Shown here in pieces: positions 4,706-24,245 of a DNA stretch of 34,854 nucleotides. The notes below the pieces were generated by a model. That model had not been told where the DNA came from. It did not search any database and saw only the letters and a program-made list of their open reading frames with translations. Location of the stretch: assembly GCA_030145085.1 (NCBI GenBank), contig JAQYWG010000006.1, positions 3,043-37,896 of the forward strand, read 5' to 3'. Positions within the stretch are counted from its first letter, which is position 1. The number at the start of each line of letters is the position of its first letter. The position numbers and the translations under genes were made by a program. Origin of the DNA: Thermodesulfobacteriota bacterium. GTDB lineage: Bacteria > Desulfobacterota > BSN033 > WVXP01 > G020346125.

Positions 4706-7444
4706 TCATGACGACAAAAATTTCCGCCTGAGGAATTGACCCGTATGTGACTGCTCGCAGGCCATCACTTCGTCTATCCCTCCGGAGACCACAACCCTTC
4801 CTCCGTTGTCTCCTCCTTCCGGGCCAAGGTCAATAATATAGTCCGCATGGAAGATCAAATCTAAGTTGTGTTCGATTATGACCAGGGAGTGACCCTGATC
4901 CAACAGTCTGTTGAAGGTTTTGAGCAACGAGTCGATATCCGCGAGGTGGAGCCCGGTTGTGGGTTCGTCGAAGATAAACAGGTTCTGGGATTTCTCGGCA
5001 TTGGCGATATAATGGGCCAACTTCAGCCTCTGTGCCTCGCCCCCGCTGAGGGTGCTGGTAGGTTGCCCAAGGGTCAGGTACCCTAGTCCCACGCCCGCAA
5101 AGACCCGGAGCTTCGAGGCAATCTTCTCATTATCGCGGAAGGATTCAAGGGCCTCATCGACGGTCATATTAAGGACGTCATGAATGGTTTTATCCCGATA
5201 GCGGATTTTGAGGATGTCTGGGTGGAAACGTTTCCCTTGGCACTGCTCACATGTTACCGCGACGTCCTCCAAGAATTGCATGTCCAGGATGACCATTCCC
5301 GCCCCTTTACAGCTTTCACACCTCCCCCCCGGAACGTTGAAGGAAAAATGCCCCGCTCTTAAGCCAGCCCTTCTGGCCGCCCTGGTATTGGCAAAGAGGT
5401 TTCGGATCTCCCCAAAGGCTCCGATGTAGGTTGCGGAGTTGGATCTGAGGCTCTTGCCAATCGGCGATTGGTCGACCATGATGATATCCTTAACCTGGTT
5501 GAACCCTTCAATGGCGTCGAAGGCACCCTTTTCGTACCTGCCGTCATTGAGGCCTTTGACTCCCGCGTAAAGGATGTTATTGACCAGGGTTGTCTTCCCG
5601 GCACCCGAGACCCCCGTTACACAGACCATTACCCTTAGAGGAATCGTAACATCCATATTTTTCAAATTATTCTCCCTGGCGTTGCGGATATGGATAAATT
5701 CCGTGGGCTTCCGTACGGGCGGTTTATTTGAGAGGCTTCTCCTCCGCCTCAAATACTGGGCGGTTTTCGACTTCTCCTGTCTTAAGAGTTTCCGGTAATT
5801 TCCCTGAAACATCAGGGCTCCGCCATTTCTCCCGGCTCCAGGGCCCAAGTCGAGGATCTCATCGGATTCCCGGATGATATCCGAGTCGTGTTCCACGACG
5901 ACGATGGTATTGCCCCCATCCCGCAGGCTCTTGAGGACCTCCAAGAGCCTCCAGTTGTCCCGGGCATGAAGCCCTATGCTCGGTTCGTCCAGTACATAGA
6001 GTGTATCCGTGAGGGCGCTCCCGAGGGCCCTGGCGAGGCTAATCCTTTGGAACTCCCCGCTGCTTAAGGTCCGGGTCTGCCGGTGAAGGGTGATGTAACC
6101 CAATCCTACATGGTAGAGGTATCGGATCCGATTTCGAATCTCCTTGAGGATTCTCCCCGCGACCTCCCCCTTCAACGGATCCAGCTTCAGCATCGTAAAG
6201 AAGTCGTGAAGATCTTCAATGCTCATGTGGCAGAGTTCTGCAATGTTCTTATCGGAAATTCGGACATTCAGGGCGTCCTCCCTCAGACGGGTCCCGTGGC
6301 ATTGTTCACACGTCGTGTAGGCCCGGTATTTGCTGAGAAAAACTCTCACATGGACCTTGTACCGTTTGGTCTCCATCCACTGAAAGAAATCATCGATTAC
6401 AGATATAACCACATCCTGTTGCTTTCGGGACAACTGGCTGAAAGGCTTTCCCATCGGTACCCGGTTTTTCCGACACCTTTCCCAAAGATAATCGTAGCCT
6501 TCACAATAGGCGGGCGAGTTCCACGGGGCAATGGGCCTCTCCTTGAGGGCCTTCCCCTTATCGGGGATAACCTTTTCCAAATCAACACCGATGACCCTGC
6601 CGAACCCCTGACAGGCAGGGCATGCCCCCAATGGGTTATTGAAGGAAAAGAGCAGTGGCTCCGGCTTGGGAAATTTCCTGTTGCACCGGTTGCAGACGAA
6701 TGCCTGGTTGAATCTGACTACTACCCCCTGTTCCCCAACTACTTCGGCCACTCCCTTTCCCTGGACAAAGGCGTTTTGCAAAGCTTCGGCCAACCGCCCT
6801 TCATCTCCCTTCTTGACCGCAACACGATCAATCAGGAGGCGAATAGACCCCTCGGCCTTCAATTCATCGACGGATAATGAGGTAATATCCCCCACCCCGC
6901 CTTCATCAAAGATCCTGAAAAAGCCACCCTTGGCCAGTTGCTTCATCTCAACAGCAGGGTCGCACCCTTTTTTGATCTCCCGCGGGGAGATGATGTGGAC
7001 TCGCTGATTCTCGAATCGGTCGATAATCCGCTGAACCGATGTGGGGATAGTGTCGGAAGAAATCGTTTCTCGACAATCGGGACAGGTGGTATCGCCTATT
7101 TTGGCAAAAAGGAGCCGAAGATAGTCGTACAGCTCCGAGGCCGTCCCCACCGTAGATCGGGCGTTCTTTACCGTATTCCGCTGCTCGATTGCAATTGCTG
7201 GTGGAACACCCACAATGGCGTCCACATCGGGACGATCCATCTTCTCCAGAAATTGCCTGGCGTAGGTGGAGAGGGATTCGACATACCTCCTCTGTCCCTC
7301 GGCGAACAGGGTATCAAAGGCCAGGGTGGACTTCCCCGACCCCGAGACTCCCGTTATTACCGTGATCTTTCCCCGAGGGATCTCGCAATGAATGTCCTTT
7401 AAGTTATGGGATCGGGCCCCGATGACCCGAATAGATCTCTCCAC
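4706..7444 (-). CDS. uvrA: Excinuclease ABC subunit A; ORF track extends to 7507 from a TTG, but GTG at 7444 (MERSIRVIGARSHNLKDI) fits UvrA N-termini better
   Basis: GARSHNLKDI; GVSGSGKSTLAFDTLFAEGQRRYVESLS; zinc-finger CNRCNRKFPKPEP; LSSGEFQRISLARALGS; LSGGEAQRLKLAHYI. Confidence 0.96.
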   Translation of the reverse strand: MERSIRVIGARSHNLKDIHCEIPRGKITVITGVSGSGKSTLAFDTLFAEGQRRYVESLSTYARQFLEKMDRPDVDAIVGVPPAIAIEQRNTVKNARSTVGTASELYDYLRLLFAKIGDTTCPDCRETISSDTIPTSVQRIIDRFENQRVHIISPREIKKGCDPAVEMKQLAKGGFFRIFDEGGVGDITSLSVDELKAEGSIRLLIDRVAVKKGDEGRLAEALQNAFVQGKGVAEVVGEQGVVVRFNQAFVCNRCNRKFPKPEPLLFSFNNPLGACPACQGFGRVIGVDLEKVIPDKGKALKERPIAPWNSPAYCEGYDYLWERCRKNRVPMGKPFSQLSRKQQDVVISVIDDFFQWMETKRYKVHVRVFLSKYRAYTTCEQCHGTRLREDALNVRISDKNIAELCHMSIEDLHDFFTMLKLDPLKGEVAGRILKEIRNRIRYLYHVGLGYITLHRQTRTLSSGEFQRISLARALGSALTDTLYVLDEPSIGLHARDNWRLLEVLKSLRDGGNTIVVVEHDSDIIRESDEILDLGPGAGRNGGALMFQGNYRKLLRQEKSKTAQYLRRRRSLSNKPPVRKPTEFIHIRNARENNLKNMDVTIPLRVMVCVTGVSGAGKTTLVNNILYAGVKGLNDGRYEKGAFDAIEGFNQVKDIIMVDQSPIGKSLRSNSATYIGAFGEIRNLFANTRAARRAGLRAGHFSFNVPGGRCESCKGAGMVILDMQFLEDVAVTCEQCQGKRFHPDILKIRYRDKTIHDVLNMTVDEALESFRDNEKIASKLRVFAGVGLGYLTLGQPTSTLSGGEAQRLKLAHYIANAEKSQNLFIFDEPTTGLHLADIDSLLKTFNRLLDQGHSLVIIEHNLDLIFHADYIIDLGPEGGDNGGRVVVSGGIDEVMACEQSHTGQFLRRKFLSS

Positions 7445-7509
7445 AACGGCCTTCCATCCCCTGAATCTCTCGACGAGCTTCACAATGGGGTTCTTGGGGA
7501 ACGTCAATA

Positions 7510-8966: not shown

Positions 8967-9935
8967 TCAACACGGAAAGAGGATGAGCTGTTTTTTCCCT
9001 TGAAGCCGCCCCGGGATGGCTTTTCTTACCCTTGCGGGCACGCAGATCTCCCCGTTTAGATCCGGGTTCTTACACCTACAAATAACCGCTGAAATGCCGT
9101 GCGTCTGGGCGCTTGTCTTCATCCTTCCATATCCGTTCTCCCTCACCCTCTTCGGGAGGAGCTTTGTCTTTGTGGACAACCCCACCTCAACCCAACTTTG
9201 ATTTTCGAAGCAGCTTTCCAGGAGTTTCCGGTGGAGGGACGGGAGTTCCGCCCTGAGTTGTCTTTGGATGGCCGGACGGAGGTGGAGGTAGCTGACCGAA
9301 GCATTTCGAATTCCCCTTTGACCGAGGGCTTTGAACAGGACCTCGACTTCCTCTCGGGTATCGCTCACAAAGGGTATGATGGGATCAATTCGAACCTGTG
9401 TGTCTATTCCTCCTGCAATGAGCCTTTCGATATTTTCCAGTTTTTCCCGGGGCGATGCAACACCGGGTTCATAGGTCCTCCAATACCCCTCCGAAAGCGA
9501 GACTAATCCGATTTGAGCGTGGACACTCTCCCGATATCCCTTGAAGAGCTCGATAAACCGCTGAGGTATGAATCCCTTGGTGAGAAAAGAGATGTTGATT
9601 CCCCTCTCCAAAAGGATGGTCATGCTCTGGTACGTGACCTCAAGGATATCCGGGTGCGGCTGGAAACAGTCGGTGGCAGTGTTGAAAATAACCATGCCCG
9701 GAAGCCATCTGCGTCTATTACGATCCAGTTCCTTGCGAAGCAACTCGGGGACATTAATGAAAAGGTAAACATCCCCCCTCGGGGGTGCAGTGGCATACCC
9801 CCGTGCATAACAATAAGCACATGAGAGTCCACACCCCTGGGTGACATTTATGGTAAAAGCCCCCTGGAGACAGCCAAATGTCCCAGGGCTGAGGGCCTTG
9901 CTCTTTCTCTCCCTGGGGATAACTCGAAGGGACAT
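8967..9935 (-). CDS. SPL-like radical SAM protein
   Basis: TQGCGLSCAYCYARG (Cx3Cx2C); C-terminal ICRCKNPDLNGEIC cysteine cluster. Confidence 0.85.
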   Translation of the reverse strand: MSLRVIPRERKSKALSPGTFGCLQGAFTINVTQGCGLSCAYCYARGYATAPPRGDVYLFINVPELLRKELDRNRRRWLPGMVIFNTATDCFQPHPDILEVTYQSMTILLERGINISFLTKGFIPQRFIELFKGYRESVHAQIGLVSLSEGYWRTYEPGVASPREKLENIERLIAGGIDTQVRIDPIIPFVSDTREEVEVLFKALGQRGIRNASVSYLHLRPAIQRQLRAELPSLHRKLLESCFENQSWVEVGLSTKTKLLPKRVRENGYGRMKTSAQTHGISAVICRCKNPDLNGEICVPARVRKAIPGRLQGKKQLILFPC

Positions 9936-10049: not shown

Positions 10050-11477
10050 TCACCTGTTTCCCGGAGGTGTAGAATACGAAACGTTATCCAAAGGGGAATC
10101 GTTGAGCCTCAACCCCCCCTCGGAATTCCTCACGCGCAACTTTAACTCTTGTAGGTCTTCCCACGTAAACCCCTCCCAACGACAGGGGAGTATCGAATTG
10201 TTGTGAAAAAGGGGTTCACCCTGCAGATCGAATTCTGAAACCCTCGAGGCGACTCCCCATAGCGGGGTTTGGGGAATGGGGGAATATTCGGCCAATTTGG
10301 GAGTCGCCCCACATGCCCGGACAAATCGTATGCTCTCCTCCACCTCTGATACCCGTTGGCCCGGCAGACCTGCCAGAACATAAACCCCTATGTCCTCTCC
10401 TGAAAATCCGGCTTCCCTCAAACATGTAATAGCCCTCTCCATCTCCCTGTTCGTAATTTTATTCCCAATTCGATTTTGCCTGATCGGATCGCTTGTCTCT
10501 AAACCAAGGCGAACGGTTTTGAATCCCACCTCGTACATCAAACTCGCGATTTCATCGGACACCTCCCTACCATGGATACCATTGGGGGTATGGAAGCGGC
10601 ATCGCATGCCCCTTCGTAAAAGCTCCCTTGCCATGGGCATGAAATGCTTTTCCGAATCAACCAACAACGCATCGTCGTAAAAAGCGATATCATGGATCTC
10701 GAAGGTGCTCGTCCAGTGTTCAATTTCATCCACTACCCTTTTGGGATCACGGTGACTGAACCTACCGGGAAGCTTCCATGCCGCACAATAGTCGCATCTG
10801 TACGGGCATCCGATGGAGGTTAATATGCAGCAGTAATCGAGAATTGAGTAGAGATCGAAGGCTGGATAGGGCAGGTTATCTATATCGCAGCCCTGGGGAA
10901 TCCGGTGTGATGGAACCCCCAAGAGTTCGTCTACAATGGTCAAGATCTTGGCGAATCCCTCTCCCGGCAAAACATAATCCGCCTTTGAGTATCTGCGGGC
11001 ATGATCGGAACACAGAGTCGTATAGATACCCCCGATTACCACGAAGGATTTTGGGAATCGCTCTTTGACCAGGCGAATCACATGGAACGGCCCCGGATAC
11101 CAATACGTCATTATGGATGTGACCAAGACAACCTTGGGCTCGTTTAGGGCCTCCAATTGCTCTCTAAATGTCTCCTCGGAGATGCCGTACCGACTATATT
11201 TCCTGGGTATATTTTCAAGTGTTGGGGGTTTATCGACATTCTCCTTCAGGAAATGGCCCTGGTGGTATCGTCTCCGTTTCGGAAGTCCTTTTTCCCGAAC
11301 CATCGTGGGGTGGTGGATATCCAAACAGTCGATATATTCGACCCCATGCCCCCCATGCCTCAGCAATGCCACGATATAGAGAATTCCCAAGGGTTTCGCC
11401 CAAAGGTCAAAGGCGGCAAAATCGTAAATCCAGGGGTTAATGAGCAGTATCGATCCATTTTGTTTCACGTGAAACAT
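10050..11477 (-). CDS. B12-binding-domain-type radical SAM protein
   Basis: N-terminal ILLINPWIYDFAAFDLWAKPLGILYIVALLRHGGHGVEYIDC; VVIGGIYTT; GCPYRCDYCAAWKLPGRFSHRDPKRVVDEI (Cx3Cx2C). Confidence 0.88.
   Translation of the reverse strand: MFHVKQNGSILLINPWIYDFAAFDLWAKPLGILYIVALLRHGGHGVEYIDCLDIHHPTMVREKGLPKRRRYHQGHFLKENVDKPPTLENIPRKYSRYGISEETFREQLEALNEPKVVLVTSIMTYWYPGPFHVIRLVKERFPKSFVVIGGIYTTLCSDHARRYSKADYVLPGEGFAKILTIVDELLGVPSHRIPQGCDIDNLPYPAFDLYSILDYCCILTSIGCPYRCDYCAAWKLPGRFSHRDPKRVVDEIEHWTSTFEIHDIAFYDDALLVDSEKHFMPMARELLRRGMRCRFHTPNGIHGREVSDEIASLMYEVGFKTVRLGLETSDPIRQNRIGNKITNREMERAITCLREAGFSGEDIGVYVLAGLPGQRVSEVEESIRFVRACGATPKLAEYSPIPQTPLWGVASRVSEFDLQGEPLFHNNSILPCRWEGFTWEDLQELKLRVRNSEGGLRLNDSPLDNVSYSTPPGNR
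11461..11476. promoter_or_regulatory. parS: parS centromere site, ParB-binding palindrome
   Basis: Exact TGTTTCACGTGAAACA, a perfect 16-bp palindrome identical to the widely conserved chromosomal parS sequence, about 5-8 kb from the predicted origin. Confidence 0.93.
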
Positions 11478-11478
11478 C

Positions 11479-12867
11479 TCATTTCCCGATACAAAACTCG
11501 TTAAAAATACACTCCAACACTTCTTCCGCCGTTGTCTCCCCCCCTATCTCACCTATATCGTCGAGACACGACCTTAATTCCAAGGCCACAAGCTCAAAGG
11601 GAATCTTTCCCTCCATCCCTTCCCGTGCCCTTCGAAGGCATTGCAGTGATCCTTCAAGCGCCTTCTTGTGTCGGGCATTTACGACCACCACTTCTCCCGT
11701 ATCGAGTCCAATCCCATCTCTTGTTAGCATAGAGTAAAGGCATTCCTTCAATTTGCCGATTCCCTCGTTCTTGAGGGCGGAGATTTCCACTGCCCTTGTC
11801 TTCGGAAGGGCCCCTTGAATCTGCTCCACGGAGACCTTGATGGGGAGATCCCTTTTGTTGAGGACCACAACCGTCTTCTTCTCCCTAACTTCATCGATGA
11901 TCTCCCAATCGTACCTATCTAACCTTCTGCTACCATCAATCACCAACATCACCACATCTGCCTCGGCCACCTTGCCCTTGGCCAGTCTTACACCTTCCCT
12001 CTCAATGGGATTGGATACCCGCCTCATCCCAGCCGTATCCACCAGCCGAATGGGAATGTCATGTATAGTAACGATCTCCTCAATTACATCTCGCGTAGTT
12101 CCCGGTATGGGTGTAACAATAGCTCTATTCTCTTGCAGGAGGACGTTCAAGAGGCTGGATTTCCCCACATTGGTCTTTCCCGCGATGCTAACTGATACAC
12201 CATCCCTGTAGATTCTCCCCTCCTCATAGGAGTCGATTAATCCCTTCACTCTCCTCTCGCATTCCACCAGATTCATCCCTGTCATATCCTCGTCCACTTC
12301 GATATCTTCATCCGGAAAATCTATTAAAGCCTCAACGTGGGCCAAACTTCTGACCACCCTCGCCCTCAACTCCTCAACCTCATGGGAAAGATTTCCCCTC
12401 AGCTGTTCATGGGCCATCTTAAGGCTTTTTGCCGTCTTTGCCCTTATCACGTCGATCACGGCCTCGGCTTGGGAGAGATCGATTCTCCCATTCAAAAAAG
12501 CCCGCTTGGTAAACTCCCCAGGCTGGGCCAGCCGGACCCCTTGCCCCAGAACTCCCTCCAAAACCCTCCTTAACACCAAATATCCACCGTGGCAGTTAAT
12601 CTCTAAGACATCCTCCCTGGTATAGGTCTTCGGCTTCCGCATCAGGGTAAGGAACACCTCATCCAGCGCCTTTCCATTCTCCGGATCGACGATTTCTCCG
12701 TAATAGAGTTGGTGGGATCTTAAGCGAGCAGTTCTCTTCTTGGGGCGAAATAATCTCGCGGCCACCTTCTCTGCCAAGGGACCACTGATTCGTACGATAC
12801 CAATTCCGGATTCACCGAGTGGTGTCCCGATAGCCGCAATGGTATCCCTTTCGCCATTAAGGAACAT
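11479..12867 (-). CDS. mnmE: tRNA modification GTPase MnmE/TrmE
   Basis: MFLNGERDTIAAIGTPLGESGIGIVRISG; GKTNVGKSSLLN; DTAGMR; NKRD; C-terminal CIFNEFCIGK. Confidence 0.97.
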   Translation of the reverse strand: MFLNGERDTIAAIGTPLGESGIGIVRISGPLAEKVAARLFRPKKRTARLRSHQLYYGEIVDPENGKALDEVFLTLMRKPKTYTREDVLEINCHGGYLVLRRVLEGVLGQGVRLAQPGEFTKRAFLNGRIDLSQAEAVIDVIRAKTAKSLKMAHEQLRGNLSHEVEELRARVVRSLAHVEALIDFPDEDIEVDEDMTGMNLVECERRVKGLIDSYEEGRIYRDGVSVSIAGKTNVGKSSLLNVLLQENRAIVTPIPGTTRDVIEEIVTIHDIPIRLVDTAGMRRVSNPIEREGVRLAKGKVAEADVVMLVIDGSRRLDRYDWEIIDEVREKKTVVVLNKRDLPIKVSVEQIQGALPKTRAVEISALKNEGIGKLKECLYSMLTRDGIGLDTGEVVVVNARHKKALEGSLQCLRRAREGMEGKIPFELVALELRSCLDDIGEIGGETTAEEVLECIFNEFCIGK

Positions 12868-12899: not shown

Positions 12900-13532
12900 T
12901 TAGTCCTTGCGTCCCGTCGATTTGGGCGTAATTACGAGTTTCTTGTAAAACCCCTCCCCTTCGCTTTCCGTTCGAACATTTTCATCTCCGCTCAAGGTGA
13001 TATGAATGATTCTTCGATCCTGGGGATTCAGGGGTCCAATGGTTACGGCCTTCTTCAATTTCTTGACCTTTTCCCCCATGCGAAGTGCCATGTTCTTAAG
13101 AGCCTCAACCCTTCTACCACGATAATTCTCCGTATCCAGAATAACCTTTTCCTTCAACTCCCTGTACCTATTTGCGGCAATTTTATTCAGGATATATTGC
13201 AGGGCATCAAGGGTCTGACCCTGCTTCCCAATGATGAGGCCACCTCCATCGCCTTTGATTTCGAAAAAAATCTTCCCTTCCCTTCTTTGTGCCTCTACAT
13301 GAGCGTTGATCCCTATCAACTCTATGATCTCAGTTAGGGTCGTTCTCAGCCACGTCACCCTCTTCTCCCTTTCGTCCTCTTCCTTCCCGGGGATGGACTT
13401 CTCCCAATACCCTTTTTCCTCAAAGCGAAAGGGCTTTTCAGGGCTATTCAAAGATCCCTCCCCTTCCCCCTCCCTATGAACCTCGTCTTCCCTTCCTTCT
13501 TCCCCTTCCAAATCCTGGTCTTTCCACTCCAT
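12900..13532 (-). CDS. jag: Jag/KhpB-like KH-R3H RNA-binding protein
   Basis: GGGLIIGKQGQTLDALQYILNKIA (KH); YRGRRVEALKNMALRMGEKVKK (R3H); located between yidC and mnmE. Confidence 0.9.
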   Translation of the reverse strand: MEWKDQDLEGEEGREDEVHREGEGEGSLNSPEKPFRFEEKGYWEKSIPGKEEDEREKRVTWLRTTLTEIIELIGINAHVEAQRREGKIFFEIKGDGGGLIIGKQGQTLDALQYILNKIAANRYRELKEKVILDTENYRGRRVEALKNMALRMGEKVKKLKKAVTIGPLNPQDRRIIHITLSGDENVRTESEGEGFYKKLVITPKSTGRKD

Positions 13533-13545
13533 CTTCTTTGCTCTC

Positions 13546-15315
13546 TCATTTCAGCATCTTGTTGGTGAGATGCTGTTGACCTATCGTTAAAACATTGCTA
13601 ACCAGCCAATAGACAACCAGCCCCGAAGGGAAACTCAAAAAGAGAAAGGTAAAGATGATGGGCATGAACATCATCATCTTCGCCTGTCTCGGATCTCCCA
13701 TTGTCGGGGTCATCTTCTGCTGCCAGAACATTGATGCACCCATCAAAAGGGGTGAAACGTAAATGGGATCCCGGTAAGATAAATCCTTGATCCAAAAGAT
13801 AAAAGGGGCGTGTCTCAATTCAATAGAACCCATCAGGCCCCAATAGAGGGCGATGAAAATCGGTATCTGAACCACCATTGGAAGGCATCCGCCCACTGGG
13901 TTAACCTTCCTTCTTTTATAGAGATCCATCATCTCCCTATTGAGGCGGGCCTTGTCGTCCTTGTACCTTTCCCGTAGCATTGCCATTTCCGGCTGTACCT
14001 TCTGCATCTCCTTCATCGACACATGGCTCTTTTTCGTCAAGGGCCAAAATAAGATCTTCAATAAGATGGAGATAATGATAATATCAACTCCATAGTTCTT
14101 GGTAACCTTGTGGGTAAGATTCACAAAGTAAAGCAATATCTTGGCAACGGGCGTAAACCATCCATACCGGACAACCTCCTCCGCCCCAACGTTCAATTCC
14201 TTGAGAAGGGCAATAACCTTTGGGCCGAGATAAAGCTCGTAGGAATATACCGCCTCTCCTCCGCCGGGGATACTGCGGGCAGGAGAGACGGCCCGGCTAT
14301 ACATGACCTTCTCATCTTTCATCCCTATTTTCAGGTTTAATCCCTCGCTCTCCTTCGGCACGATGAGGGAGAGGAAAAAGGGTTTTCTCATTTTCTCGTC
14401 TTCCACGTTCCCTTCAGCCATGGAACTCCCAAACCACTGAATATCACCTGATACCAACACCTCTTCGCCTTTCTCGAACTTCTTCTTTATTTCCTTCTTC
14501 TTTATTTCCTCCACCTTTCCATTTACCATCGCCACGGGACCGGCAAAAGCCCGAGACCGGGACACCATCATCCTTTCAAGCCACACCAGTGCTACCTTCA
14601 CTTTCCTGGACTCTGCCCGTCGGTTTTTGATTCGAACTTCCATGTCGACCCGATACTCATCATCGAAAAACCTATATTCCCTGGATACGTCGAGACCCCC
14701 GGGAGAACTTCCCCTGAACAAAAGCGTCCCCTCCCTCACATTACCCCTCAAAAAGATCGAATCAGTGTCAACATCCATAGGGGCAAAGTGGACATTCCCG
14801 CCCTCATCCGCGATCTCGATTGTTAAAGGAAGGTTCTTTACCGCCTCTGTTGTCACCAGCTCAACCGGTTCGGGCTTCCCCTCGGCAAGCGCTTTTCCTC
14901 CAAATCCCAAGAGTCCCTTGACCTTTCTTTCCGTCTCCTGAAACCACCGGACGAACCGCCCGTATTCAATTACGTTCATATAGTGATTTAACCTCCAACT
15001 CTTTAACCGTCCGCCGTAACTCGAGAAGGTAGCCGAATATAATCTCGTTTCAACGGTCACATCCCTGACGCTTTTCCTTTCCTCTTCCTCTGCCCTCTTC
15101 GATACAAATCCTTCTCCTTCTCTTCCTCCCGGCCCCGGGTGCAAGTGCCCTTTACCTCCCCTTTCGGTCACTTCTGGACCGCGCGCTATCGGTTCAACTC
15201 TCTCTCTCTCCGTTGGCTCCACTCGCTTCTTGGGCTGTTCTTTTAGAAACCATTTTTGATAAAAAATGAGAACGAGCATTGATAAAACGATGGCTATAAT
15301 CGCCCTTTTTTCCAT
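13546..15315 (-). CDS. yidC: Membrane protein insertase YidC (Gram-negative form with periplasmic domain)
   Basis: N-terminal TM; KNYGVDIIIISILLKILFWPLTKKSHVSMKEMQKVQPEM; NPVGGCLPMVVQIPIFIALYWGLMGSIELRHAPFIFWIKDLS. Confidence 0.97.
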   Translation of the reverse strand: MEKRAIIAIVLSMLVLIFYQKWFLKEQPKKRVEPTERERVEPIARGPEVTERGGKGHLHPGPGGREGEGFVSKRAEEEERKSVRDVTVETRLYSATFSSYGGRLKSWRLNHYMNVIEYGRFVRWFQETERKVKGLLGFGGKALAEGKPEPVELVTTEAVKNLPLTIEIADEGGNVHFAPMDVDTDSIFLRGNVREGTLLFRGSSPGGLDVSREYRFFDDEYRVDMEVRIKNRRAESRKVKVALVWLERMMVSRSRAFAGPVAMVNGKVEEIKKKEIKKKFEKGEEVLVSGDIQWFGSSMAEGNVEDEKMRKPFFLSLIVPKESEGLNLKIGMKDEKVMYSRAVSPARSIPGGGEAVYSYELYLGPKVIALLKELNVGAEEVVRYGWFTPVAKILLYFVNLTHKVTKNYGVDIIIISILLKILFWPLTKKSHVSMKEMQKVQPEMAMLRERYKDDKARLNREMMDLYKRRKVNPVGGCLPMVVQIPIFIALYWGLMGSIELRHAPFIFWIKDLSYRDPIYVSPLLMGASMFWQQKMTPTMGDPRQAKMMMFMPIIFTFLFLSFPSGLVVYWLVSNVLTIGQQHLTNKMLK

Positions 15316-15591: not shown

Positions 15592-15921
15592 CTAATTGAA
15601 TATGACTTTCAATTCCTCAAATACCTCTCGATAACCCTTGATTGAAATTTTCTCCTTCGCCAAAACAATGAAATCTGATGATTCGGGCATCTTCTCCTTG
15701 TTTAATCTAAAGAATTCCCTGACCAATCGTTTGATCCGGTTTCTCGAAACCGCCCCCCCCACCTTCCTTCCCACGACAAGCCCCAACCTCTTCGCATCCT
15801 TATCGTTTTTCCTCAAGACGAGGGTAAAATGCTCGGTCTTAAACTTCTTTCTTCTCCTAGGATCTTTCCAAAAATCGATCTTTCCCGCGATTCTATTTTC
15901 CCTTCCGTATGACCTCCTCAT
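15592..15921 (-). CDS. rnpA: Ribonuclease P protein component; exact start uncertain
   Basis: FKTEHFTLVLRKND...RLGLVVGRKVGGAVSRNRIKRLVREFFRLNK; located between yidD and rpmH. Confidence 0.93.
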   Translation of the reverse strand: MRRSYGRENRIAGKIDFWKDPRRRKKFKTEHFTLVLRKNDKDAKRLGLVVGRKVGGAVSRNRIKRLVREFFRLNKEKMPESSDFIVLAKEKISIKGYREVFEELKVIFN

Positions 15922-16477: not shown

Positions 16478-18901
16478 GTGGAGCAAGCAAATATTCCTAT
16501 AAACATCGAAGATGAGATGAAAACCTCTTATATGCAGTATGCCATGAGCGTCATCGTGGGCCGCGCATTGCCGGACGTCCGGGATGGCCTCAAACCCGTT
16601 CACCGGCGAGCCCTATACGCCATGTATGAATTGAAAAATCATTGGGATAGACCCCACAAGAAGTCGGCCCGCGTTGTCGGCGATGTAATCGGAAAATATC
16701 ATCCCCATGGGGAAGGAGCTGTCTATGATTCCATCGTGAGAATGGCACAGGACTTCTCGTTACGCTACCCTCTGGTGGACGGGCAGGGGAACTTCGGCTC
16801 CATCGATGGGGATTCCCCTGCCGCCATGAGATATACCGAAGTGAGGATGTCCAAACTCGCTGCGGAATTGCTGGCAGATATCGACAAGGATACGGTAGGA
16901 TTTATTCCAAATTATGATGAGTCCCTCAGGGAACCCCTCATCCTACCCGCGAAATTTCCAAACCTCCTCGTCAATGGATCTTCGGGAATTGCGGTAGGGA
17001 TGGCCACGAATATTCCCCCTCATAGCCTTTTTGAAACTATTGATGCCGTCATCGCCCTCATCCGCAATCCTCAGATTGATATTCACGAGCTTTTGAAAAT
17101 AATCCCCGGCCCCGACTTTCCAACGGGAGGTCTTATCCTTGGCCACCAGGGCATTAGATCGGCATATGAAACGGGAAAAGGTATTATGAGAATAAGGGCT
17201 CGGGTTATTATAGAAAAGCCAAAAAAAACGGATCGCCCCTGTCTCGTGATCACCGAGCTTCCATACCAGGTAAATAAATCCCGCCTTATCGAGCGGATTG
17301 CCGAGTTAGTCAGGGAAAAGGTAATCGAGGGTATCTACTCCTTAAGGGATGAATCCGATCGAGAAGGCATGCGTGTCGTTATCGAATTGAAGAAAAATGA
17401 GGTTCCCCAAGTCACCCTCAACCAGCTCTTTAATCATACTCAAGTAGAGATCTCTTTCGGAATCATCATGCTCGCGGTGGTCGACAATCAGCCAAGATTA
17501 CTCAACATTAAGGATATGCTTTCCCTTTTTATCGAGCATAGGAGGAACATTGTAACAAAGAGGTGCCGATTCGAACTCGATAAGGCTGAGTCCAGGGCGC
17601 ACATCTTGGAGGGCCTAAAGCTTGCTCTTGAACGACTCGACTCCGTGATTACCATTATAAAACAATCCAAGAATCCCCAAGATGCTCGGGATGGATTAGT
17701 GAGGAAGTTGTCCTTATCCAGAGAACAGGCTCAGGCCATTTTGGACATGAGGCTCCAAAGGCTTACCGCTCTAGAGAGAGAAAAGATTTTGGAGGAATAC
17801 AAGGAGGTAATAAAGAACATTGCCCGATTGAGGGAAATTTTGGCTCACGATAACTTGATTCTCAACATCATTGTTGAGGAACTCTCGGCAATTCGGGACA
17901 AATTCAGCGATGAACGCAGAACGGAAATTATCGGGGAAATCTCGGAAATTGATCTAGAGGATATGATTGCAGAAGAGGATATGGTGGTAACGATTAGCCA
18001 CAGGGGTTATATAAAGAGAAATGCTCTTAGTCTTTACCAATCTCAGCACCGGGGGGGAAGGGGAAAAATTGGCATGACCACAAAAGAAGGAGATTTTGTG
18101 GAAAACCTGTTCATTGCTAGTACACATAGTTACATCCTCTTCTTCACCAACTATGGAAAGATTCATTGGCTTAAGGTCCATGAACTTCCCCGGGGTGCAA
18201 GGGCTTCGCGCGGGAAGGCAATAGTCAATTTACTCAATTTGGCCCCAGAGGAAAAAACTACCGCCATCCTCCCGTTAAAGGATTTTTCATCGGGGAAATA
18301 TATCGCCTTCGCAACTAAGCGGGGATTCGTCAAAAAAACGGAACTGTCAGCCTTCAGCAAACCAAGGGCGGGCGGGATCTTAGCAATCCACTTAGATCAG
18401 AACGATGAACTTATCTCCGCTAAATTAACCGAAGGAGACCAACAAATTCTTTTGGGAACTAAATCCGGAAGGGCTATACGCATGTTGGAGAAACGGATCC
18501 GCTCAATGGGAAGAACGGCAAGGGGGGTCAAGGGAATCGCTGTCAATGGGAGCGAGGTCGTGGGAATGGAAATCGTTAAAGAAGGTACAACTATTCTGAC
18601 CGTTACGGAAAACGGCTTCGGAAAACGGACAAAAACCTCTGCATATAGGACACAGAACCGGGGAGGCAAGGGAATCATTACCATCAAAACAACCGAGCGA
18701 AACGGCAGCGTAATGGGAATTAAGCAGGTTGATGATGATGATGAACTTGTCCTCATAAGCACAAAGGGTAAGATTATTCGGCTCCGGATTTCGGATATAT
18801 CCGTAATGGGGAGAAATACGCAAGGCGTTACATTGATCGGTATGGATGCTGGCGAGACTGTGGTCGGCACCGCAATATCTTCCTCAAAGGAGCTGATTTA
18901 G
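16478..18901 (+). CDS. gyrA: DNA gyrase subunit A (GTG start)
   Basis: [47 protein letters not shown]; GyrA-box-like QHRGGRG. Confidence 0.97.
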
Positions 18902-19160: not shown

Positions 19161-19202
19161 TTCTCCACAGGGAGGATTTTACTTATCCACAATTGTGGAT
19201 AT
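19161..19202. other. oriC: Candidate oriC DnaA-box cluster upstream of dnaA
   Basis: TTCTCCACA (19161-19169, 8/9), TTATCCACA (19183-19191, 9/9) and inverted TGTGGATAT (19194-19202, 8/9). Strand switch and dnaA context. Confidence 0.7.
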
Positions 19203-19257: not shown

Positions 19258-20601
19258 ATGCAACCCGTCATTATGGAAGCCATCTGGAACGCGGTCCTTA
19301 ACTATGTCAAGGATAAAGTCGCCCCTAGCGATTACCAAGTGTGGATTGAGCCCATTACTCCGCTTTCCCTTGGGGAAAAAACCATGGAGGTTGGGGTTCC
19401 AAACAAATTTTTTGAAGATTGGCTTAGGAAGAATTACCTTTTCCTCATAAGGGAAGCTTTATTGCTCGCAGTGGGGAGGGAATGTGACGTCGTTTTTAAA
19501 GTAAAAAGGAATCCTTTACCCCAAGGCACCAAAAGACCATTATCATCAATAGATAAACGAGTTCAATCAGAGCATGTTCAGTTTAATAAAAAATATACCT
19601 TTGATAATTTCGTCGTGGGACCTAGCAATCAATTCGCCAATGCTGCATGTCAGGCCGTCGCCAGCTTACCCGCAAAGAATTACAATCCTCTCTTCATTTA
19701 TGGGGGTGTCGGCCTCGGTAAAACACATCTCTTAAACGCTATTGGAAATTATCTAATACAGAATCCAATTATTCAAGATTTCAGCAAAATTTGCTATGTC
19801 TCCGCCGAGGAATTTACGAATGAGCTCATCAATTCAATCCGATATGAAAAGATGGATGAATTCCGAGAAAAATTCAGAAGCATGAACATGCTCCTCATAG
19901 ACGACATCCAATTTATTGCCGGAAAAGAGAGAACCCAGGCGGAGTTTTTTCACACGTTTAACTCTTTGTACGAAGCAAGGAGACAGATTGTAGTAACAAG
20001 CGACAAATTTCCAAGGGATATCACCGCTTTTGAAGAACGCCTTCGTTCACGATTCGAATGGGGGCTCATAGCGGACATTCAACCCCCAGACATTGAAACA
20101 AAGGTTGCAATACTGAAGAAAAAGGCTCAATTAGAAGCAATCTCAATTCCCAATGATGTGGCTTTCTTCTTGGCCTCGAATATCTCTTCTAATATAAGGG
20201 TATTGGAGGGATCCCTTATAAGAATAGTTGCTTTTTCAAACCTTACGCGAACTGATATAACATTGGATTTGGCAAAGGATGTTTTAAAAAATATTATCAA
20301 AACAGAGGAAAAACCTGTTCCCATTGAATCTATTCAAAAGGCCGTTGCTTCTCATTTTAATCTCAAGGTTTCGGATTTGAAGGCTAAAAGGAAAACCAAG
20401 CAGATTGTTCTTGCACGGCAAATAGCAATATATCTGTCCAGGAGACTCACTAAATCCTCCCTCGTTGAAATAGGTGAACGTTTTGGAGGAAAGGATCATT
20501 CAACAATTTTACACGCGATTAATAAGATTAAGGAACAAATGCAAATTGATCAAAAGATTGTCCAAATCATTCAGAGAATTGAATCAAGACTAAACACCTA
20601 A
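19258..20601 (+). CDS. dnaA: Chromosomal replication initiator protein DnaA (alternative ATG at 19273)
   Basis: NYNPLFIYGGVGLGKTHLLNAIGN; LLIDDIQFIAGKERTQAEFFHTFN; GGKDHSTILHAINKI. Confidence 0.98.
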   Translation: MQPVIMEAIWNAVLNYVKDKVAPSDYQVWIEPITPLSLGEKTMEVGVPNKFFEDWLRKNYLFLIREALLLAVGRECDVVFKVKRNPLPQGTKRPLSSIDKRVQSEHVQFNKKYTFDNFVVGPSNQFANAACQAVASLPAKNYNPLFIYGGVGLGKTHLLNAIGNYLIQNPIIQDFSKICYVSAEEFTNELINSIRYEKMDEFREKFRSMNMLLIDDIQFIAGKERTQAEFFHTFNSLYEARRQIVVTSDKFPRDITAFEERLRSRFEWGLIADIQPPDIETKVAILKKKAQLEAISIPNDVAFFLASNISSNIRVLEGSLIRIVAFSNLTRTDITLDLAKDVLKNIIKTEEKPVPIESIQKAVASHFNLKVSDLKAKRKTKQIVLARQIAIYLSRRLTKSSLVEIGERFGGKDHSTILHAINKIKEQMQIDQKIVQIIQRIESRLNT

Positions 20602-20720: not shown

Positions 20721-21833
20721 ATGGAATTCCAAATTGAAAAGAAACACTTTTCGCAATCTCTCAGTATCCTCCAAGGAATTGTTGAAAGACGGAGTAGTAT
20801 TCCTGCTCTAGGCAATATCCTCATGGAATCGGAGAATAATCAACTCCGTCTATCTACAACTGATCTTGAAACTGCCTTAATCTGCGATCTTTCCTGTTCG
20901 CTTAAACAAGAAGGGAAAATTTGTGTGTCTGCGCGAAAACTGTATGATATCATTAGGGAACTTCCCGACACGGAAATTTCTATAGAGGGAATGGAAAACA
21001 ATTGGGCAAAAATAACTTGTCAAAATGCGATCTTTAACCTGAGTGGGCTTGATCCGATGGAGTTTCCCACTTTGCCATCATACTCCGATGATGCTCTTAT
21101 TGTAATAAAATCATTTGATTTGAGGGAAATGATCGACAAAGTTATTTTTGCTGCGTCAACAGAGGAATCGAGATATAATCTCAATGGAATCTTCTTTGAA
21201 GTCAATGCTTCCGGGGATAAAAATATTGCGAAAATGGTAGCGACGGATGGCCACAGGCTTGCTCTCATTGAGAGAGAAAGTCCGGAATTCTCAGGTATTG
21301 AAAAAGGAGTAATAATTCCGAAAAGGGGCTTAAACGAGGTTAAAAAAATAGTCGCCGAAAATCCAGGAGAAATGAGAATCGCTATAAGTGAAAATAGTTT
21401 TGTACTCAAAGCGGGTCCATTTGTTGTAATCATTCGGTTGATCGATGGGGAATTTCCGGATTATAAACAGGTGATACCAACAGAGAATGACAAAACACTA
21501 AAGTTGAGCAACAGAGAGTTTTCCTCTTGTTTGCGGAGGATATCTGCGATATCTACTGATAGGGTTGAAGGGATAAAGTTTAGCCTTAAACAAGGGGCTA
21601 TAGAATTGTACTCTTCTACTCAAGATATCGGTAATGCAAAAGAGGTATTTCCAGCAATTTATGACGGAAGCGAGGTAAATGTTGGGTTTAACGCAAGATA
21701 TATTCTTGATGCCCTAAATGCAATCGATGAAGACGAAATTTTGATGGAATTAAAGGACGAAACAAACGCGGCTGTTATCAAGCCAGCCATTGGAGAAAAT
21801 TCCTTATATGTAGTCATGCCAATGAGGGTTTAA
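20721..21833 (+). CDS. dnaN: DNA polymerase III beta sliding clamp
   Basis: MEFQIEKKHFSQSLSILQGIVERRSSIPALGNILMES; C-terminal YVVMPMRV; located after dnaA. Confidence 0.97.
   Translation: MEFQIEKKHFSQSLSILQGIVERRSSIPALGNILMESENNQLRLSTTDLETALICDLSCSLKQEGKICVSARKLYDIIRELPDTEISIEGMENNWAKITCQNAIFNLSGLDPMEFPTLPSYSDDALIVIKSFDLREMIDKVIFAASTEESRYNLNGIFFEVNASGDKNIAKMVATDGHRLALIERESPEFSGIEKGVIIPKRGLNEVKKIVAENPGEMRIAISENSFVLKAGPFVVIIRLIDGEFPDYKQVIPTENDKTLKLSNREFSSCLRRISAISTDRVEGIKFSLKQGAIELYSSTQDIGNAKEVFPAIYDGSEVNVGFNARYILDALNAIDEDEILMELKDETNAAVIKPAIGENSLYVVMPMRV

Positions 21834-24245
<2,412 letters not shown>

Follow-up and report, generated by a model that had tools for sequence, protein, structure and literature searches.

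An origin-proximal parS site that appears to double as the start of a radical SAM gene in a Thermodesulfobacteriota bacterium

The stretch of DNA analysed here (34,854 nucleotides, hereafter the window) carries a single perfect parS site near the probable replication origin, and this site contains the start codons available to a gene for a radical SAM protein. It is highly likely that the site is an origin-proximal centromere whose parS doubles as the start of the radical SAM gene, the DNA being kept for ParB while the encoded peptide is a passenger.

The parS site, the origin region and the partition proteins

The site (TGTTTCACGTGAAACA, positions 11461-11476) was originally predicted to be a perfect palindrome identical to canonical parS, and sequence search confirmed both its identity and its exact position. 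It agrees with the chromosomal consensus TGTTNCACGTGAAACA at 16 of 16 positions and is a perfect palindrome. When the window was scanned with up to 2 mismatches allowed it was the sole match (0.05 expected from shuffles). A scan of the genome, a draft of 3.14 Mb in 480 contigs that is 99% complete and whose gaps could hide further parS sites, returned this one site with 0 or 1 mismatch and no one-mismatch copy; there is a single copy, not the many random ones that the whole-genome search proposed at the outset might have revealed. By chance an exact 16-mer is expected about 0.0007 times in 3.14 Mb (3.14e6/4^16). The four sites with 2 mismatches are background, because a reversed control pattern yields more (7).

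The site lies within an origin cluster, rnpA-yidC-jag-mnmE / gyrA-dnaA-dnaN-gyrB. On the parS side, all on the minus strand, are mnmE for a tRNA modification GTPase (11479-12867; Pfam PF12631, PF10396, PF01926), jag/khpB (12900-13532; Pfam R3H and KH), yidC (13546-15315; Pfam 60KD_IMP, YidC_periplas) and rnpA (15592-15921; Pfam PF00825). On the opposite side, on the plus strand, are gyrA (16478-18901), dnaA (19258-20601; Pfam PF00308, PF08299), dnaN (20721-21833) and gyrB (21837-24245). The sign of the GC skew switches near 16.5 kb, on the upstream side of gyrA, and a perfect DnaA box (TTATCCACA, 19183-19191, plus strand) is found in the gyrA-dnaA gap, a candidate oriC region. Gene cluster, skew switch and DnaA box together therefore identify the window as the origin region, the position of oriC itself being putative. 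The distance between parS and the probable origin is about 5-8 kb. As far as a draft genome with a putative oriC allows, this matches the few copies near oriC typical of chromosomal parS, with one copy and dnaA about 8 kb away. A UvrA-like ABC protein of 933 aa is also encoded near the origin (4706-7507, minus strand).

As originally predicted, parAB is missing from the window, and it is missing too from the contig, which the window nearly fills. The suggested genome search located a chromosomal ParB (210.9 bits to TIGR00180) and ParA on contig C55, in the gene order rsmG-parA-parB-bactofilin; the genome scan found no perfect parS near parAB. The description of the site as lying without parAB nearby is thus true, but the situation is ordinary: the relatives checked, from the genus, the family and the class, likewise have parB and mnmE-parS on different contigs, so that separation of parAB from parS is normal for the group.

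The ParB carries a GERRWRAA motif and the parS-type contact residues Q162, G170, K171, R173, N178, G201 and R204 (Caulobacter numbering, placed by spacing; residue list from PMC7383237), with D at residue 172 where S is usual. Position 184 is K, the permissive state; about 28% of ParBs have K or R at 179 or 184 (PMC7383237). With R173 and G201 present, and with a score of 258.6 bits against a cut-off of 315 for the Noc model TIGR04285, the protein is of the parS type and not of the Noc type. A Noc-binding site was also rejected for the window, since positions 1 and 6 set such sites apart from parS (PMC7383237) and the window sequence is parS at both. The genome encodes a second ParB/Noc-like protein, divergent and about 200 aa long, at a contig end (G000, C164:3071-3589; L009:1501-2019); it scores below the TIGR00180 cut-off and may represent a plasmid gene, contamination or a Noc-like paralogue.

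Because the window holds the sole perfect site near dnaA, ParA and ParB are present, and the ParB has canonical parS residues, the site is, on sequence grounds, very probably a working chromosomal centromere.

Start of the radical SAM gene and its conservation

The gene behind mnmE (10050-11477, minus strand) encodes a B12-binding radical SAM protein of 475 aa with the predicted N-terminus MFHVKQ (Pfam PF04055, PF02310); in a profile search for its subfamily no NCBIfam model scored over its cut-off. The reading frame opens ATG TTT CAC GTG AAA CAA, which is A followed by parS. The ATG (11475-11477), the first in-frame start, takes its TG from parS and its A from the adjoining base, while codon 4, at the centre of parS, is an alternative GTG start in the same frame (11466-11468). 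No in-frame start lies upstream of the ATG in the window gene, and from parS to the conserved ILLINPW strand neither this gene nor the parS-start orthologs have an in-frame ATG, GTG or TTG beyond the central GTG. The available starts are thus all in parS and in frame with the gene. Since the only in-frame starts sit inside parS, the first residues are predicted to be parS codons, and the original reading of MFHVKQ as translated parS is supported. Judging from these reading frames, parS-start genes have just two places at which to initiate, the -1 codon (ATG, GTG or TTG) and the central GTG. Among the distinct parS-radical SAM genes tested, start codons lie solely within parS in all but G004.

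The mnmE TGA (11481-11479) is followed by one base and then the radical SAM ATG, and parS begins two bases past the stop. The site had been said to cover the Shine-Dalgarno and start region together with the first codons; it covers the start codon (minus its A) and codons 2-6, but a Shine-Dalgarno sequence is not clearly covered, the mnmE TGA lying upstream. A second radical SAM gene, weakly similar to the Rv2578c/PA0069 families, is found downstream (8967-9935, minus strand) and also adjoins the first gene in G003.

Perfect parS-type sites, mostly one or two per genome, are present in 50 of 59 relatives. Gene mapping around the sites showed that the anchor shared by parS sites in this class is the mnmE 3' end, and a sample of 395 genomes from the phylum includes 30 in which parS lies at most 31 bases from that end, with differing genes behind. 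The radical SAM gene starts on parS in twelve relatives (G002, G003, G008, G009, G011, G012, G014, G016, G018, G022, G033, G044); G045 also keeps the overlap, with mnmE on another contig. In G006, G010 and G019, whose radical SAM gene lies elsewhere, parS is still directly behind mnmE. In G004 and G005, which belong to the same taxonomic order, parS is out of frame or too far upstream and the gene uses its own start downstream, so embedding in parS is not obligatory. G004 has a perfect parS on either side of the radical SAM gene (C18:36306 and 37718; L091:6307, 7719).

In the 395-genome sample, NPW codons follow parS within 8-38 bases at 16 sites in 15 genomes. At 16 of 16 sites parS and NPW share one reading frame (31 gap lengths allowed), with distances of 35, 38, 41 and 44; these sites come from related genomes and are not independent trials, and all length changes are of whole codons. 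One bin, G105, contains two mnmE-parS-radical SAM copies (L239 on its contig C55, L242 on C98), both in frame and likely from two strains (5% contamination).

Codon-by-codon comparison of the parS-start orthologs found TTT CAC GTG AAA invariant in 13 of 13, from five families, whereas codon identity is about 48% where orthologs share an F, H, V or K elsewhere (pairs with <65% protein identity). Displaced orthologs begin MGTKHSPH, MVAEKHSPH or MVTGKHSPH, keeping the KH(S/T)PH tail and lacking FHV; that FHV decayed after displacement is a reading of history from few genomes of one genus. Orthologs without parS also have no N-terminal extension. The proposed check on conservation of MFHVKQ thus showed that this N-terminus is confined to orthologs whose DNA is parS at that place, and MFHVK was rejected as a conserved protein motif. 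Because the parS codons are invariant and FHV is lost off parS, selection appears to act on the DNA site, with the peptide a probable by-product. As to whether parS is translated in the radical SAM orthologs, the in-frame NPW spacing, the lack of another start and the decay of FHV on displacement together say yes, as far as sequence comparison can tell.

parS at gene starts in other bacteria

Across diverse bacteria, 183 parS sites were sampled, giving 366 strand readings. Read from the preceding base, parS has one frame that is open on both strands; this frame includes GTG, and also ATG when an A precedes parS, which is the case for 202 of the 366 readings. At 71 of the 183 sites A and T flank parS on both sides (the 18-bp palindrome ATGTTTCACGTGAAACAT; L110-L226), against about 56 expected. 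Since A occurs on both sides of the same site above expectation, the flanking A fits a preference of ParB or of base composition better than selection for a start codon.

Clear parS starts in this sample include those of mnmG and parA in one zetaproteobacterium, rsmG in Tomitella and mnmG at L201. A probable further case is a radical SAM gene of another kind, which begins MFHVKH on parS in an Erythrobacter MAG (L111:3670-4764, minus strand), and parS also fronts a gene for a YkgJ-like protein. Where mnmG is downstream of parS, about 1/3 of sites are open in the start frame, as chance predicts, and a general enrichment of parS as start codon was rejected on this basis; many of these mnmG genes start downstream of parS, the parS frame being shifted or stopped. 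The lack of a clear preference in the mnmG frames suggests that the general pattern is opportunistic. The parS start of the radical SAM gene looks inherited. No earlier report of MFHVK, or of parS over a start codon, was found in the open-access literature; subscription papers were outside the scope of the search and may contain an earlier mention.

Mechanism, alternatives and known systems

We suggest that ParB, made from the parAB operon elsewhere in the genome, would load at parS as a CTP-dependent clamp and slide to adjoining DNA, and that ParA would move ParB so that sister origins separate. The parS, anchored just behind mnmE, carries in its frame, (A)TG TTT CAC GTG AAA CA, a potential ATG and a central GTG, which would explain why the radical SAM start lies in parS: the gene takes one of the two. 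Translational coupling to the mnmE stop probably aids initiation. Purifying selection for ParB binding would preserve the DNA, and MFHVKQ would be a tolerated passenger. The dual use is most likely an economical packing of genes rather than a new control circuit.

The persistence of the overlap across several families, and its retention in G045 where mnmE is on another contig, might instead reflect regulation, with ParB at parS blocking transcription from mnmE or hindering initiation, radical SAM expression tracking the segregation state, and the overlap selected for that; a parS over the promoter -10 box before gidB has been proposed to be regulatory in mycobacteria (PMC2346475). We consider this unlikely, as the overlap has been freely lost in G004, G005, G006, G010 and G019, and parS fronts the unrelated mnmG, parA, rsmG and YkgJ-like genes, which argues against a gene-specific circuit. 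Moreover, chromosomal ParBs mostly affect parS-adjacent genes weakly or not at all, and ParB loss leaves such genes unchanged in B. subtilis and S. pneumoniae (PMC7022226). Modest ParB silencing has been reported in P. aeruginosa. The coupling of segregation to radical SAM expression through ParB that was originally suggested is therefore possible but unsupported, and a stricter form, in which ParB loading directly gates transcription or translation of the gene, tying the timing of a metabolic gene to origin segregation, with the overlap kept in several families to that end, seems quite improbable.

Starts downstream of a shifted or stopped parS frame, as in G004, G005 and many mnmG genes, could mean that here too the true start is elsewhere, parS is intergenic and MFHVKQ is an annotation accident. 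This is very improbable for the window gene, in which no other ATG, GTG or TTG is available in frame on either side of parS before the first conserved strand, and in whose family the spacing to NPW varies by whole codons only. That the 16-mer matches parS by chance, or is bound by a different regulator, is a reading for which no supporting point was found, and it can be dismissed as extremely improbable given the expected number of exact matches, the origin-proximal position, the same location in many relatives and the encoded ParB.

If parS is a centromere that a packed gene has adopted, one stretch of DNA is under two constraints, as centromere and as start codon plus N-terminus. Any gene packed behind parS can adopt it, as parS offers potential starts in one frame on both strands. 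N-termini of the form MFHV(K/E)(H/Q) that recur on proteins of origin regions should accordingly be read as centromere and not as protein motif, and a parS-start gene provides a natural test of the effect of ParB occupancy on expression.

Among known systems, the parS sites of mycobacteria at gidB and in parA are likewise near the origin and overlap coding sequence or signals for expression, and regulation has been proposed; they overlap a promoter -10 box and the parA coding region and are not described as start codons (PMC2346475). Thermus thermophilus parSc is, like the window site, a single chromosomal parS in a coding gene, with tRNA/rRNA-modification and par genes in the neighbourhood (PMC4409726). 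Its host gene gidB encodes an rRNA methyltransferase directly upstream of parA, and the passages of that report on parSc describe no start-codon role. With the chromosomal parS of ParABS in B. subtilis, Caulobacter and many other bacteria the window site shares the identical 16 bp, an origin-proximal position and a genome that encodes ParA and ParB, but it is a single site, lies away from parAB and doubles as a translation start. The parS itself is ordinary; its conserved dual use is what is unusual.
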